Source of the DNA: Shimia isoporae
Lineage (GTDB): Bacteria; Pseudomonadota; Alphaproteobacteria; Rhodobacterales; Rhodobacteraceae
NCBI RefSeq assembly: GCF_004346865.1
Contig: NZ_SMGR01000001.1
Span: 682,001 to 746,000, forward strand
Reading direction: 5' to 3'
DNA: 64,000 nucleotides
A model generated the notes under the pieces. That model was not told the origin of the DNA and made no database searches. It was given only the letters and a program-made list of their open reading frames with translations. The position numbers and the translations under genes were made by a program. This document shows, one piece after another, positions 46,479 through 52,400 of the stretch. Every line of letters begins with the position of its first letter. Within the stretch, counting starts at the first letter, position 1.

Positions 46479-47708
46479 TCAGGTTTTTGGAGGCGCGCCG
46501 CCTTCGAAACTGTTTCCGTTGACGTAGTCACAGGGTTCGTCCTGCATTTGCAAGTGAAGTCCGGTGTCGGTGAAAGGGTGCGCTCGGGCAAGGTCTTCGT
46601 TGACCTCAATGCCGAGCCCCGCGGCCGTGGGCGGGGTCACGAAACCGTCCTCGACTGAGATCGATGAGGATATCAGCGCGTCGTGGAATTCGGTTTCGAT
46701 GGTCTCGATCATTAGCAGGTTGGGGATGGACGCTGCGAGGTGGATGTTGGCAGCCCACTCCACCGGCCCGGCATAAAGGTGGGGTGCCATTTGAGCGTTG
46801 TAACATTCTGCAATTGCAGCAACTTTCTTCATTTCCCAAATGCCGCCGGCACGCCCGAGGGCAGGTTGCAGAATTTCGGCCGCACCGGTGCGAAGCACGG
46901 TTGCGAATTCCGATTTGGTCGTCATGCGCTCACCCGTTGCGACCGGAATACGCACGTTGCGAGCCACTCGGGCCATGTCTTCGATGTTATCAGGCGGTGT
47001 CGGTTCTTCGAACCAGAGCGGGCTGTATGGCTCCAGTGCCTGACCGAGGCGGATGGCGCCCGCTGTGTTGAATTGTCCGTGGGTGCCGAAAAGCAGGTCT
47101 GCTCTGTCGCCGACTGCTTCTCTTATGGCTTTGCAGAAGGCGACAGACATGGAGATGTCGGACATGGCGGGCATATGTCCGCCGCGCATGGTGTAAGGGC
47201 CGGCGGGATCGAACTTTACAGCGGTATAGCCTTGGCGCACCATTTCGGCGGCGGTTTCTCCCGCCATTTCTGGGGAAGTCCAGAAATCGGAAACCTTATG
47301 ATGATCAAGGGGATAGAGATAGGTATAGGCGCGCAAGCGCTCGTTCATCAAGCCGCCGAGCAGAGCATAAACCGGGCGATCGCGGTCTTTGCCAAGAATG
47401 TCCCAACAGGCAATTTCGAGGCCGGAAAATGCACCCATCACAGTCAGGTCAGGACGCTGGGTGAAGCCGGATGAATAGGTCCGGCGGAAAAGGCGCTCGA
47501 TGTTTTCGGGGTTTTCGTCAAGGAAGTAGCGGTCAAACACGTCGCGAATAACGTGGGTCATCGCGTCCGGACCTACTGATGAGGCGTAGCATTCACCCCA
47601 GCCGGTGACGCCGGTGTTTGTGGTCAGCTTGACGAGTATCCAGTAGCGGCCACCCCAACCGGGCGCGGGCGGCGCAGTGACGATGACGTCGAGATCTGTG
47701 AGTTTCAT
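46479..47708 (-). CDS. Enolase-superfamily (mandelate racemase type) enzyme
   Basis: 409 residues from ATG 47708 (AGGGA upstream). N-terminal capping domain (GWGECYASSVGPDAM), then the TIM barrel: Lys165 in TAVKFDP, LLFGTHGQF (208-210), FEEPTPPDN (Glu234), ATGER (Glu260) and His310 in APHLYAGPVEW. Where the family has its first metal ligand Asp (DxH or DxN), this protein has Gly208, with His210 kept. It is related to sugar acid dehydratases of the ManD/GalD type, but the substrate is unknown. It lies downstream of the tmpB-like gene, across the third repeat array. Confidence 0.85.
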   Translation of the reverse strand: MKLTDLDVIVTAPPAPGWGGRYWILVKLTTNTGVTGWGECYASSVGPDAMTHVIRDVFDRYFLDENPENIERLFRRTYSSGFTQRPDLTVMGAFSGLEIACWDILGKDRDRPVYALLGGLMNERLRAYTYLYPLDHHKVSDFWTSPEMAGETAAEMVRQGYTAVKFDPAGPYTMRGGHMPAMSDISMSVAFCKAIREAVGDRADLLFGTHGQFNTAGAIRLGQALEPYSPLWFEEPTPPDNIEDMARVARNVRIPVATGERMTTKSEFATVLRTGAAEILQPALGRAGGIWEMKKVAAIAECYNAQMAPHLYAGPVEWAANIHLAASIPNLLMIETIETEFHDALISSSISVEDGFVTPPTAAGLGIEVNEDLARAHPFTDTGLHLQMQDEPCDYVNGNSFEGGAPPKT

Positions 47709-47767
47709 GGTCTTGTCCCTGTGGTCAGTCGCTCTCTGACGAACGGTCTGAATTTTGCTGTTTCTGA

Positions 47768-47811
47768 CGTCTGCAAAACGTCGGTATTTCGTCGGCACCG
47801 CATCTGTGCCG
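47768..47811. repeat. 11-bp phased tandem repeat array (copy 3)
   Basis: Units CGTCTGCAAAA, CGTCGGTATTT, CGTCGGCACCG and a decayed CATCTGTGCCG. The first unit is identical to the first unit of the array at 24583. It occupies the 119-bp gap between the HD oxygenase gene and the enolase-superfamily gene. Confidence 0.75.
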
Positions 47812-47827: not shown

Positions 47828-48409
47828 TTATCTCTGGTGGCTCATGTGGGCGTCGACAACTCTTTGAACCATTGGCGCAAAATGGGCGTAGTCGGGCGTC
47901 GGCATGTCCGGGCGTTTTCCGGCTTCGTCCAAGTAGCGGACCTGTATGATTTTCTCCAAATTCGGGTTCTGTTCGAATTCGGTAACTTCGGCGTCGGACA
48001 TTGGGCCGCCTTGAAGATTGAGCGAATGGATCGACGCGTCTGACAGGCGGTCAAAATATTCCGGCTTGGTGGCGCAAAGATATCGTTTTGCGGCCACATG
48101 AAACCGCACGCAATCGGTGACCACCGACGGGAAGAATTCGGCCAATACCTTGGCGCCGGCTTCCTCGTGAAACCGGTCTTTGGTGTCTTCCATGGAAAAC
48201 GTTCCGAATTCGGAAGTAAAATGGCCGATGTCGTGCAGGAGCGCTGCAACTATGATGTCCTCGCTCATGCCGTTCTGTTCCGCGATTGTCGCCCCCTGAA
48301 GCATGTGTTCAGCCATGGTGACGGGTTCGCCCAGATATTCTTCGTCGCCGCATCGCGCAAAGATGTCGCCGATGAAATCAACGATGGTGTCTTGTGTGAG
48401 TTCGGTCAT
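47828..48409 (-). CDS. TmpB/PhnZ-like HD-domain mixed-valent diiron oxygenase
   Basis: 193 residues. The diiron ligands line up with PhnZ: His35, His59-Asp60 (LLHDIGHF), His81 (RFHEEAGA), His104 (VRFHVAAKRYL) and Asp161 (VRYLDEAGK). Active-site residues Tyr25, Glu28, His63, Lys108 and Arg158 are also present. PhnZ and TmpB cleave the C-P bond of a 1-hydroxyphosphonate with O2, giving a carboxylate and phosphate. The start overlaps the stop of a GBBH-like dioxygenase gene by 4 bp. That partner type favours TmpB ((R)-1-hydroxy-2-trimethylaminoethylphosphonate to glycine betaine) over PhnZ. Usually annotated only as HD domain protein. Confidence 0.85.
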   Translation of the reverse strand: MTELTQDTIVDFIGDIFARCGDEEYLGEPVTMAEHMLQGATIAEQNGMSEDIIVAALLHDIGHFTSEFGTFSMEDTKDRFHEEAGAKVLAEFFPSVVTDCVRFHVAAKRYLCATKPEYFDRLSDASIHSLNLQGGPMSDAEVTEFEQNPNLEKIIQVRYLDEAGKRPDMPTPDYAHFAPMVQRVVDAHMSHQR

Positions 48410-49530
48410 GGTTCGATCTCCAACGCGGCAAGCGTCGACAGCAGGCCGTCCTTATCTGCGTAACAGCCTTGGAGCCAGCGATTGCCCGCGCCCGAGTATC
48501 CTTTGCGGGCGTGAAGAACGCGGGTGTTGTCAACGATGAATGCTTCTCCCGGGACCAGTTTGAACCGGACCTCCGACGCAGGGTCGTCGATGATGTCGCT
48601 CAGCTGGCGCAGCGCAGTGTAGTAATCTGTCATTTTGTCAAATGGTACGTCCAGTGGCGGAGCAGCGGAACGTGCGTTGAACCGGATGGAGTTCAATGTG
48701 CCCTCCGGTGTGAGTTCGATGACCGGACGGCGTGACGTGAGCTTTACGCCGGCCTCGCCAGCATATTCGAAACGGGCGGAGTGGCTGTGCAAAAGCGCAA
48801 AGCCATCCGGATTGTCTTGTCGCAACCTTTGCACAGCTGCAAATCCATCAACCACCATGTTGTCGCCGCCTTCAGCAGAATTCTCAAGACAGGCAAGGAC
48901 TTGAAGGGTCGGAACAGGGTCGCGATAGGGGTTGTCTGTGTGGGCCTGAAGGCCGAGGCCTGTAAAGGCGAGATTGGTTGGATTGACCTCGGTACGGACT
49001 TCGAAATGCCGACCATAGTTGGTTTCCCGCACAAAGCCAAAAAGGGCAACGATGTCGAATAGTGCACCCGGTTTCGGTGGCATACCGGATACTTTGGCAA
49101 ACCCGTAGCGGCGGATGGCCGCAAGCCAGTCGCGTTTGGCACGGTTGCTGCTTTGCAGGTCGGGCAGGTGTCCGGTCGGCACGCGCTCCATCAAAGACGC
49201 GTCCCATGTCTCAGCGTGTTCCGGCAAATGTCCTTTGTCGGTTTTGAGAACACGGTCATAGGCGTTGGCTGCGAGCCACTCGACGGGGAAAGCCGTGGAC
49301 TTGCCGTCTGTAAAGGTCATCGAGACGGTTGTGTCCGACGCTTCGGCAGTCGCGAGTTTGCAGGTGTCTGGCAGGTCGGCGAGCGTTGTGAGGCGTTGCC
49401 CGTTGTTTTGATCCCGATTGGATGGGTCAAGGGCGTTGTGGCGGAGCCAGACTGCGTGAAATCGGAGCACACCTTGCGGCAAGGAAAGAGCGAGAACTTG
49501 GCCTTGGTCTTGCAATGTGGCGTCGGTCAT
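48406..49530 (-). CDS. TmpA-like 2-oxoglutarate/Fe(II) dioxygenase (GBBH family)
   Basis: 374 residues; AGGAG precedes the ATG. It has an N-terminal DUF971-like domain (FHAVWLRHNA) without the Zn-binding Cys of human BBOX1, then a TauD-type dioxygenase core with iron ligands His197, Asp199 (AHTD) and His340 (RVLHARKGY) and 2-oxoglutarate-binding Arg351 (GNRWLQG). Aromatics at the BBOX1 trimethylammonium cage positions are kept: Tyr172, Phe176, Phe189. Coupled to the HD oxygenase gene, it probably hydroxylates C1 of 2-trimethylaminoethylphosphonate. True gamma-butyrobetaine hydroxylase is the alternative, but would not explain the partner. Confidence 0.85.
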   Translation of the reverse strand: MTDATLQDQGQVLALSLPQGVLRFHAVWLRHNALDPSNRDQNNGQRLTTLADLPDTCKLATAEASDTTVSMTFTDGKSTAFPVEWLAANAYDRVLKTDKGHLPEHAETWDASLMERVPTGHLPDLQSSNRAKRDWLAAIRRYGFAKVSGMPPKPGALFDIVALFGFVRETNYGRHFEVRTEVNPTNLAFTGLGLQAHTDNPYRDPVPTLQVLACLENSAEGGDNMVVDGFAAVQRLRQDNPDGFALLHSHSARFEYAGEAGVKLTSRRPVIELTPEGTLNSIRFNARSAAPPLDVPFDKMTDYYTALRQLSDIIDDPASEVRFKLVPGEAFIVDNTRVLHARKGYSGAGNRWLQGCYADKDGLLSTLAALEIEP

Positions 49531-49625
49531 TTCTGAACTCCTGCTGTGTTGCGGCGCCGGCGTTTCGCCCGGGGGCTGGCTATCGTCTGCCTGTCGCGAC
49601 GGAAGATGGGTCGGGATGCGCCAAC

Positions 49626-49997
49626 TCAGGTCCCCATTGATGCTGCGAAGGCTTCAAGTTCGCGCTCGATTTCGGTGATCGCTGCTTGCGTGCTGAAGAA
49701 ATAGAGATCGGGCGCGTCAACATCGTCCATGAAGACCTCGATCTCCATGGCGATGTCTTCTCCGTCAAAACCGCATGTGATTTTCCAGCGCCTTGTGTCT
49801 TCGACGGGGATATCGGAAAGGCCATCGCCGATGGCCGTGGCCACATCTGCGGGCAGTTCAAAGCGCGGATGGTTGGTCAGCCGTGTCAGAAAAGGCGCGA
49901 CCTCGACGGCGTCAAAATTCATGGACGTCGTCGAGGTGATCGGCGGCGGCGGTTTCGGCGCCGACGGTTTGAAGAGGTCTGTGACGAATTTCAGCAC
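49626..49997 (-). CDS. Small protein of unknown function in the tmpAB-like cluster
   Basis: 123 residues, soluble and acidic. A Pro/Lys-rich N-terminal stretch (LFKPSAPKPPPPITS) is followed by a compact alpha/beta region (WKITCGFDGEDIAMEIEVFMDD) and a C-terminal helix. I do not recognise the family. It lies 24 bp after the alcohol dehydrogenase gene and 95 bp before the dioxygenase gene, all on the minus strand, so it is probably co-transcribed with them. Confidence 0.65.
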   Translation of the reverse strand: MLKFVTDLFKPSAPKPPPPITSTTSMNFDAVEVAPFLTRLTNHPRFELPADVATAIGDGLSDIPVEDTRRWKITCGFDGEDIAMEIEVFMDDVDAPDLYFFSTQAAITEIERELEAFAASMGT

Positions 49998-50021: not shown

Positions 50022-51110
50022 TTAGCGGTCAAACACAATCACGTTGCGCTTCGCGCTGCCGGTTTTGGTGTCGGCGATGGCCTCGTTGATCTGGTCAAGT
50101 GTCCAGCGGCCCGAGATCAGTTCGTCAAGCTTCAGGCGGCCCTGCTGGTAAAGGTCCACCATCCACGGAATGTCACGCTTGATGACCACGTCGCCCATCT
50201 TGCTGCCTTGCATGCCCTGACCGATGGCAGCGAGGATAACCGGCTCATAAGTGGATTTGGCGCCGGAATGCGGCATGCCAACCATGATGACCTTGCCACC
50301 AGGCGCGAGATAGCGGGGGGCGTCGTCATAGGCGGGGATCGCGCCGACGGTGACAATAACCGCGTCGGCGCCGCGGCCCATTGCGCGCATTGCTTTCACA
50401 AAGGGCTTCTTTTCGGTTGCCAGAACCCCGTCTGTGGCGCCGAATTCCTTCGCGATTTCAAGCTTTTCCTCGCTCATGTCCACCGCGACGATCCGGCGGG
50501 CTCCAGCGATGCGGGCGCCTTGAATGGCGTTCAGGCCCACGCCGCCGGCGCCGATCACGACCACATCCTGACCGGCGCGAATTTGGGCGGCGTTTACCAC
50601 GGCTCCGACGCCGGTGATCACGCCGCACGCAATTAGGCTGGCGGCCTCCATCGGAATGTCTTCGGAGATTTTCACAACCTGCGACTGGTCGACCACGACC
50701 TTCTCGGCAAAGGCCCCGCAGGCCATGGCCTGATGCAGTTTGCCGCCATCTGTTGTGCTCAAAGGCCCCTTGTCGCCGTCGTAGGGCGTACCACAGATCA
50801 CCGGCTTGCCCTCGGAGCAGGAGGGGCATGTGCCGCAGGCACGGATCAACGTGACAATAACAGGGTCGCCTTCGGCCAGACCGGTGACGCCCGCGCCCAC
50901 CGACGTAATGCGTCCTGAAGCTTCGTGGCCGTAAACGGCAGGCAGGCTTCCGCCCCAAGCGCCGTCAGCGAAGGAAATATCGGAATGGCAAATTGCCACC
51001 GCGGACAATTCAACTTCGATTTCGCCCATTTGGGGCGCACGCAGAGTGACGTCTTCGACAACGAGGGGTTGGCCGAACTCGTGGCAAACAGCGGCTTTGA
51101 TGGTGGTCAT
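50022..51110 (-). CDS. Zn-dependent alcohol dehydrogenase (class III-like MDR)
   Basis: 362 residues of the medium-chain dehydrogenase family. Catalytic zinc ligands: Cys in AVAICHSDIS, His in YGHEASGRI and Cys in LIACGVITGVG. The structural zinc lobe is CGTCPSCSEGKPVIC. NAD is bound by GAGGVGLNAIQGARIAGARRIVAVD, with Asp selecting NAD. It resembles class III (S-hydroxymethyl-glutathione) or NDMA-dependent enzymes, but the substrate is not fixed by sequence. Upstream of the tmpAB-like genes on the same strand, it may process an alcohol or aldehyde from quaternary amine or C1 metabolism. Confidence 0.88.
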   Translation of the reverse strand: MTTIKAAVCHEFGQPLVVEDVTLRAPQMGEIEVELSAVAICHSDISFADGAWGGSLPAVYGHEASGRITSVGAGVTGLAEGDPVIVTLIRACGTCPSCSEGKPVICGTPYDGDKGPLSTTDGGKLHQAMACGAFAEKVVVDQSQVVKISEDIPMEAASLIACGVITGVGAVVNAAQIRAGQDVVVIGAGGVGLNAIQGARIAGARRIVAVDMSEEKLEIAKEFGATDGVLATEKKPFVKAMRAMGRGADAVIVTVGAIPAYDDAPRYLAPGGKVIMVGMPHSGAKSTYEPVILAAIGQGMQGSKMGDVVIKRDIPWMVDLYQQGRLKLDELISGRWTLDQINEAIADTKTGSAKRNVIVFDR

Positions 51111-51197: not shown

Positions 51198-52400
51198 TTA
51201 TTTGCCGCCACGTGAGTTTTGGAAAACCACAAAGGACAAGACCATCAACAGGGCCGCCAGCAGGAACGGAGCGCCGGGCAGGTAGAGAATCGCGTGCTCT
51301 TTGGAGAAGAAGGCGAAGGTCTGTGTCATCACCAAGGGTGCGGCGATGTGGGCGAGGGATGTGAGCGAGGCCGAGACACCTTGTAGCTCGCCTTGAGCGT
51401 CGTCCGGAACGCGGCGGGACATGATCCCCTGAAGCGCCGGCAGACCGATGCCGCCAAGCGCGGCGATCGGCACTGTTGCGAGCACGAGCCAGCCGATGGA
51501 TACAAAACCGAGGAAGAGCAACGCTGCCACCTCGATAGCCAACCCGATCAGCACCGTGCGACGGTTGCCGAAAATGCGCACGGACGGCGCGATCAAAAAG
51601 CCCTGAACCAGTGCAAATCCAATGCCGTAGACCGCCAGTGACACGCCGATCATGCGAGGTTCCCAGCCGAAGCGCTCGGCTGTGAAATACGGCCAGATAG
51701 CCGGGTAAACGGCGGTTGCGATCTGATACAACAGAAAGACAGTAAGCAGGCGGGTCATGGCTGGCAGCTTGCCCAACGCCTTGAGTGAACCGAGTGGGTT
51801 CGCGCGTCGCCATTCAAAGGTGCGGCGGTTCTTTTCTGTCACCGTTTCCGTGAGTGTGAACCAGCCGAGAAGGGCGTTTGCACCCGCGAGAATTGCGGCG
51901 GCCCAGAATGGAGCGCGGGTACCGAATTCGCCAAGAATGCCACCAATTGCCGGGCCAAGCACGAAGCCGATGCCGAAACCTGCGCCCACGATCCCGAAGG
52001 CCTTGGCTTTGTCCTCGGGTTTGGAAATATCGGCCATATAGGCCAACGCGGTTGCATAGGTCGCGGCGGTGATGCCCGCAATGATGCGCCCGACAACCAG
52101 AAGCCACATGGAATTTGCCAACGCCATGATCACGTAGTCTGCGGACATAACAGCGAGGCTAACCAGAAGTACTTTGCGCCGTCCGTAGCGGTCAGAAAGG
52201 TTGCCCAGAAGAGGGCCGCACAGAAACTGCATTACCGCGAAAACGGTGGCGAGAATACCGCCCCAGACCGCCGCTTGCGCCAGATCACCGCCCATCACCT
52301 CGCGGATCAGGTCCGGCATGACCGGGATAATCAAACCGATGCCCATGGCGTCTATGGTCACAGTGGCCAGAATGACCAGTATGGGTAGGCGGTTCGTCAT
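51198..52400 (-). CDS. MFS exporter, TetA-like
   Basis: 400 residues, twelve helices. The drug:H+ antiporter motifs of the TetA group are visible: DAMGIGLIIPVMPDLIREV in helix 1, LGNLSDRYGRRKVLLVSL in loop 2-3 and GAGFGIGFVLGPAIGGILGEFG in helix 5 (motif C of exporters). It exports an unknown compound by proton exchange; tetracycline is only one member's substrate and resistance should not be assumed. It stands between the dehydrogenase and the esterase gene. Confidence 0.9.
   Translation of the reverse strand: MTNRLPILVILATVTIDAMGIGLIIPVMPDLIREVMGGDLAQAAVWGGILATVFAVMQFLCGPLLGNLSDRYGRRKVLLVSLAVMSADYVIMALANSMWLLVVGRIIAGITAATYATALAYMADISKPEDKAKAFGIVGAGFGIGFVLGPAIGGILGEFGTRAPFWAAAILAGANALLGWFTLTETVTEKNRRTFEWRRANPLGSLKALGKLPAMTRLLTVFLLYQIATAVYPAIWPYFTAERFGWEPRMIGVSLAVYGIGFALVQGFLIAPSVRIFGNRRTVLIGLAIEVAALLFLGFVSIGWLVLATVPIAALGGIGLPALQGIMSRRVPDDAQGELQGVSASLTSLAHIAAPLVMTQTFAFFSKEHAILYLPGAPFLLAALLMVLSFVVFQNSRGGK

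Follow-up and report, generated by a model that had tools for sequence, protein, structure and literature searches.

Genes at the locus

The 64,000-nucleotide stretch of DNA analysed here (the window) contains two overlapping open reading frames on the minus strand. The upstream gene, tmpA (48406..49530, minus strand), encodes a 374-residue Fe(II)/2-oxoglutarate dioxygenase, the predicted 2-trimethylaminoethylphosphonate 1-hydroxylase. The downstream gene, tmpB (47828..48409, minus strand), encodes a 193-residue HD-domain diiron oxygenase, predicted to act on (R)-1-hydroxy-2-trimethylaminoethylphosphonate. The stop codon of tmpA and the start codon of tmpB share 4 bp (48406..48409, minus strand), which suggests that the two genes are translationally coupled. 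Both frames and their overlap agree with the preliminary description of this DNA.

The dioxygenase matches the TmpA equivalog model NF049936 over residues 22-371 with 537.9 bits (E 1e-161; curated cut-off 400 bits). The HD protein matches the TmpB equivalog model NF049941 with 364.7 bits (E 9.1e-110; curated cut-off 300 bits). The best relatives in the Protein Data Bank are TmpA (PDB ID: 6npb, E 6.1e-143) and TmpB (PDB ID: 6npa, E 1.3e-100) of Leisingera caerulea, with 59% and 79% identity, respectively. With both scores above the cut-offs and these nearest structures, the pair had been named correctly as tmpAB-like. A search of the own genome with the TmpA model at E 0.001 found no second match besides this tmpA. 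In the comparison with Shimia haliotis, the NG86 dN/dS ratios are about 0.10 for tmpA and 0.04 for tmpB, with dS saturated.

Active-site residues

Conservation was assessed in alignments of 111 TmpA and 111 TmpB rows. Each set holds one locus that the other lacks, and at least four rows are apparent duplicates (L116/L047, L117/L077, L119/L066 and L120/L039). The passages of PMC8177086 on TmpB describe an H...HD...H...H...D diiron ligand motif together with a YxxE lid. The window TmpB has the corresponding ligands His35, His59, Asp60, His81, His104 and Asp161, as well as Tyr25 and Glu28 of the lid, His63 and Lys108. All of these residues are invariant in the 111 TmpB rows, and the PhnZ-type iron ligands and active-site residues that had been predicted for the HD protein are thus complete.

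In TmpA, the facial triad for Fe(II) (H197, D199 and H340) and R351, which we take to be the 2-oxoglutarate arginine, are present in the window and in 111 of 111 rows. The trimethylammonium cage consists of Y172, F176, F189 and Y357. Its columns were located by alignment with human BBOX, whose cage residues served as the reference. The three aromatic residues named earlier (Tyr172, Phe176 and Phe189) are all found in the window protein, and Tyr172 and Phe176 are invariant among the 111 rows. Position 189 varies: it is Phe in the window and in 30 of 111 rows, and Tyr in the other 81 and in L. caerulea (Tyr190).

The phosphonate contacts of L. caerulea TmpA are given as N187, N287 and R288 in the part of PMC9296572 that deals with these residues; the numbering of the PDB chain is 6 higher for all three. 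N187 corresponds to N186 in the window, invariant among the 111 TmpA rows, and R288 corresponds to R287, which is Arg in 111 of 111 TmpA rows vs 0 of 20 GBBH-like rows (described below). The third contact is replaced. The window has Ala286 in place of Asn287, and this column holds Asn in 66, Ala in 28 and Ser in 17 of the 111 rows, so that the contact Asn is absent from 45 of them. The combination of F189 and A286 is limited to the window and eight of the 111 rows, all from near kin of the Shimia type (the apparent duplicates L120 and L039 are both counted among the eight). The window enzyme therefore differs from the characterised enzyme at two substrate-contact positions, an observation that counts against a TmpAB reading. 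The natural variation between Asn, Ala and Ser at one phosphonate contact of TmpA orthologs is open to experimental comparison.

In summary of the likeness, the L. caerulea pair (PDB IDs: 6npb-6npd for TmpA and 6npa for TmpB) is the same two-enzyme pair with homology over almost the full length, and it shares the iron ligands, the phosphonate contacts R288 and N187, the Tyr and Phe of the cage, and the YxxE lid. The differences in TmpA are Asn287 to Ala286 and Tyr190 to Phe189.

Separation of TmpA from γ-butyrobetaine hydroxylases

Human BBOX (γ-butyrobetaine dioxygenase, PDB ID: 4bg1) belongs to the same family as the window TmpA and shares its Fe ligands and aromatic cage columns, but has Ala in the column where the window protein has Arg287. 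The substrate of γ-butyrobetaine dioxygenase is a carboxylate. On the γ-butyrobetaine hydroxylase (GBBH) model TIGR02409, the window TmpA scores 380.8 bits (E 6.4e-114), which is below the cut-off of 414.75 bits. The score is not far below, and this speaks against the TmpAB reading.

As a comparison set, we used 20 of the 46 near-full-length matches that fall below the cut-off of the TmpA model (238.6-336.1 bits); these proteins are GBBH by resemblance, not by proven activity. TIGR02409 matches all 20, the best with E 6.6e-105, weaker than the match of the window protein, and one of them with 343.8 bits, below the cut-off of the model. None of the 20 genes has tmpB beside it (loci of 2.7-3.2 kb).

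A search of 299 genomes of the phylum with TIGR02409 found eight with a match above the cut-off. Five of the matching proteins (L193-L197, all from a single family in the window's class) score 513-541 bits on TIGR02409 and 544-553 bits on the TmpA model. They have Arg in the 287 column and an adjacent tmpB relative with 59-60% identity to the window TmpB, and since these marks and the TmpA scores agree, we read them as TmpA. The remaining three (L198-L200) have no tmpB match, carry Phe in the 287 column and reach 327-329 bits on the TmpA model. Among the 15 loci added for the careful tree below, Arg287 is found in 10 of 10 that have a tmpB match and in 0 of 5 that do not.

In a careful tree of 66 rows, a branch with 99/100 support separates two groups. 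The first comprises the window and Leisingera TmpA together with all tmpB-linked rows (L193-L197 included). The second comprises the 20 GBBH-like rows, L198-L200 and another two rows without tmpB. The preliminary description had named clustering with true γ-butyrobetaine hydroxylases as the outcome that would speak against its reading; the window protein instead groups with tmpB-linked TmpA, separated by the 99/100 branch from the three GBBH-model proteins without tmpB, in a tree that is without a bacterial GBBH of proven activity. A quick tree of 128 rows, which carried long-branch warnings, gave the same split, with 107 TmpA rows beside the window and Leisingera and 21 rows beside human BBOX (SH-aLRT 100). 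A distant pair (L208:1474-3146) joins the TmpA side at its base. Its dioxygenase is 34% identical to the window TmpA and scores 468.1 bits, above the TmpA cut-off, and its HD protein is 41.5% identical to the window TmpB.

The NCBI model for GBBH itself seems to take in TmpA, as five of the eight proteins above its cut-off are TmpA by other marks. For the same reason, a TIGR02409 score is weak evidence for or against a GBBH. Generic naming is a real hazard for TmpA, with five TmpA proteins of other genomes passed by the GBBH model. One arginine and an adjacent tmpB separate TmpA from GBBH-like proteins where this model fails.

Predicted pathway and competing assignments

We consider it highly probable that the gene pair is a TmpAB operon acting on 2-trimethylaminoethylphosphonate, with the substrate and the C-P cleavage deduced from orthology. 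TmpA would use Fe(II), 2-oxoglutarate and O2 to hydroxylate 2-(trimethylammonio)ethylphosphonate at C1, giving the (R)-1-hydroxy compound. TmpB, as an Fe(II)/Fe(III) diiron HD oxygenase, would then cleave the C-P bond of this compound with O2 to yield phosphate and glycine betaine. The substrate, the stereochemistry and the products in this scheme are carried over from those that the relevant passages of PMC8177086 and PMC10574752 report for the Leisingera pair. The genes, their orthology, the catalytic residues, the constant pairing and the position inside a conserved gene order are supported directly.

The dioxygenase could be a carnitine-making γ-butyrobetaine hydroxylase with an unrelated phosphohydrolase beside it. 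The two enzymes belong to the same superfamily, the aromatic cage and Fe ligands are common to both, and the window protein scores higher on TIGR02409 than any of the 20 GBBH-like proteins. The score on the TmpA model is nevertheless far above the cut-off, both trees place the protein apart from the GBBH-like rows, R287 is a feature of TmpA rows that GBBH-like rows lack, and the near-constant tmpB partner is missing at all 20 GBBH-like loci (and at the three GBBH-model proteins without tmpB, by definition of that set). The tree, the residues and the tmpB partner led us to reject a GBBH identity for the dioxygenase, a decision for which the GBBH model score alone is not decisive, and we regard this combination of functions as very unlikely. 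A pair of the PhnY/PhnZ type for 2-aminoethylphosphonate, or a pair for methylphosphonate, is more improbable still. PhnY/PhnZ of bacterium HF130_AEPn_1 share the two-step logic of oxidative C-P cleavage and the diiron ligand set of the HD protein, and the window HD protein aligns with PhnZ over almost its full length (E 2.7e-31). The homology between the two pairs is only distant, however, and the substrate of PhnY/PhnZ, which the section of PMC8177086 on these enzymes gives as 2-aminoethylphosphonate, is unlike the one predicted here. The HD protein reaches 364.7 bits on the TmpB model vs 143.2 bits on the hydroxymethylphosphonate enzyme model (cut-off 300) and 203.8 bits on the generic Phn-HD model TIGR03276 (cut-off 214.6), both below the cut-offs, and its partner is a TmpA with an aromatic cage.

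The residue differences in TmpA raise a further alternative, namely that the pair is TmpAB-like but serves another quaternary, dimethylated or monomethylated aminophosphonate, since TmpA of the Shimia clade is without one contact Asn and one cage hydroxyl. The restriction of F189 with A286 to the window and its near kin is in favour of such a change. The remaining pocket is constant, though, with N186, N285, R287, Y172, F176 and Y357 invariant in 111 of 111 rows, and the mixture of Asn, Ala and Ser at position 286 shows that Asn is not strictly needed. We think a change of substrate unlikely and prefer 2-trimethylaminoethylphosphonate.

The TmpAB assignment makes the window pair a new copy of an already known pathway. 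According to the pertinent passage of PMC10590968 (2023), no pathway other than TmpAB has been described for the degradation of 2-trimethylaminoethylphosphonate. The present case adds a well-supported instance from a marine genome of the Shimia type, with phosphate and glycine betaine predicted to be released at once.

Uptake and other phosphonate routes

A search with PF12974 found no PhnD-type binding protein within the 64-kb window. The genome has seven matches, all of them elsewhere, which bears out the earlier remark that no phosphonate transporter is adjacent. Six of the seven were scanned. Two are above the PhnD cut-off of 261.1 bits (280.6 and 302.4 bits), one is a TAXI-TRAP protein, and three are relatives below the PhnD cut-off. 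The two above the cut-off are encoded near two genes for PhnJ, the C-P lyase core protein (G000:C1:303959-304762, L012, and G000:C2:24011-24823, L011), at distances of about 3.7 and 7.5 kb. The two PhnJ genes score unequally (383.6 and 471.9 bits). This arrangement suggests two C-P lyase loci in the genome, and phosphonates could be broken down by C-P lyase as a second route. No 2-aminoethylphosphonate transaminase PhnW was found in the genome above the cut-off of 400.8 bits; the best match has 70.2 bits. Entry of the phosphonate would probably depend on a transporter of the PhnCDE or another type encoded elsewhere in the genome, and PhnCDE-type transporters for this uptake may be located at the two PhnD/PhnJ loci. 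The expectation that uptake is encoded elsewhere is consistent with these two candidate PhnD proteins. The uptake route and the use of the phosphate and betaine are our own inference.

Distribution and genomic site

Of 248 genomes of the family, 33 encode a TmpA above the curated cut-off. For named genomes, we used the best 80 of 507 confirmed TmpA loci, the nearest of which come from Shimia. A tmpB gene is present at 99 of 100 TmpA loci (these 80 and 20 others). In 79 of the same best 80 of 507, tmpB starts between -12 and +21 nt from the tmpA stop, with the tmpB starts estimated from the alignment. The only locus of the 100 at which tmpB was not detectable (L085) is on a MAG contig of 3,378 bases with about 850 bases downstream of tmpA.

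The window pair is flanked upstream by a gene for a 123-residue protein with no NCBIfam or Pfam match (49626..49997, minus strand) and a zinc alcohol dehydrogenase (ADH) gene (50022..51110, minus strand), and downstream by an enolase-superfamily (MR_MLE) gene (46479..47708, minus strand). Many relatives have the gene order MFS, zinc ADH, sometimes the 123-residue protein, tmpAB where present, enolase-superfamily protein and ArsR. The MFS protein of this order is encoded at 51198-52400 on the minus strand and matches the tetracycline-efflux class A/B/C/D model with 377 bits, below the cut-off of 475. The enolase-superfamily frame is open from a GTG at 47798 (46479-47798); we placed the start at the ATG at 47708 because the start of the relative L160 aligns there. 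In L160 (genome G073, no tmpAB at the site), the 123-residue gene ends 2 nt before the enolase-superfamily start.

A search of 120 family genomes for the enolase-superfamily gene gave 84 with a match at E 1e-100 or better. Among the best 30 of these 84 loci, four have adjacent tmpB (own genome included), 21 have ADH upstream with no tmpAB between the two genes (within about 250 bp in 17 and about 550 bp in 4), and five have neither tmpB nor ADH within the 1.5 kb covered. Of the 26 genomes that are without tmpAB here, eight (G031, G038, G043, G072, G073, G075, G086 and G100) carry TmpA elsewhere, either on a different contig or at a distance of about 250 kb. In the window, the conserved succession of ADH and enolase-superfamily gene is broken by tmpAB. 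As its site varies while the neighbours are constant, tmpAB can be regarded as a movable module set among backbone neighbours (the 123-residue gene, ADH and enolase-superfamily genes). The enolase-superfamily gene and ADH were judged not to belong to the pathway, being neighbours without tmpAB between them in 21 of the 30 loci. There is also no compositional sign of a recent foreign island, with a G+C content of 56.8% for tmpAB vs 58.1% for the window. At third codon positions, the G+C is 0.64 and 0.66 for the two tmpAB genes, compared with 0.66 for the enolase-superfamily gene and 0.73 for ADH.

The tmpAB pair of Shimia haliotis DSM 28453 (L036) occupies the same site between ADH and the enolase-superfamily gene. 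Its TmpA and TmpB are 80% and 89% identical to those of the window, and F189 and A286 are found in both. S. haliotis keeps a divergent LysR gene (L036:7010-7885) that the window is without.

A divergent LysR gene stands beside tmpA in 43 of the 79 loci judged (the window and 78 named loci from the best 80 of 507; L057 and L068 have too little upstream DNA and were left out). This count covers homologs of the S. haliotis LysR with more than 35% identity within 400 nt and would miss more distant ones; a LysR-like cluster was not used because it included frames antisense to tmpA and ADH. In the window, no LysR or other regulator gene is adjacent to tmpAB, and the 95-bp gap upstream of tmpA (49531..49625, minus strand) leaves no room for a LysR gene in comparison with relatives. 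An ortholog of the S. haliotis LysR was not found elsewhere in the genome. The best match has 32% identity vs 74-77% between S. haliotis and seven Shimia-type loci, so the LysR ortholog looks lost. A Pho box was not found near tmpAB; the whole window has 2 matches vs 3.5 expected by chance. The lack of a neighbouring regulator gene and of a nearby Pho box counts against the TmpAB reading.

Different histories of tmpA and tmpB

The TmpA tree joins the window and S. haliotis to L035, L037-L041 and L042 in a group of 9 rows (SH-aLRT 100). The TmpB tree separates them from L035 and L037-L041 and places them next to S. marina (support 89), as part of a larger set of 18 rows (support 95). When a 39-row TmpB tree is constrained to the TmpA grouping, its log-likelihood falls by 59 units; the p-AU of 0.0001 is optimistic, as the trees had already been inspected when the constrained group was picked. 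Since the trees of tmpA and tmpB conflict, the two genes were not inherited together as one unit, a point that counts against the TmpAB reading. Recombination inside the operon would be the simplest reading of this conflict.

A more far-reaching proposal is that the Shimia clade carries a mosaic, in which recombination re-paired a TmpA with a remodelled phosphonate pocket (F189, A286) with a TmpB of another lineage, free of LysR in the window. Compared with the Leisingera enzyme, such a pair may oxidise different or a wider range of N-methylated phosphonates, independent of substrate induction. We regard this as a speculative possibility with a small chance of being correct.

A second TmpB lineage of 18 rows (SH-aLRT 98) is 56-63% identical to the window TmpB. 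Its members (L042, L053, L055, L061, L075, L081 and others) are paired with TmpA of several lineages, a variety of partners that suggests partner exchange within the operon. All five scanned members of this lineage score above the TmpB cut-off.
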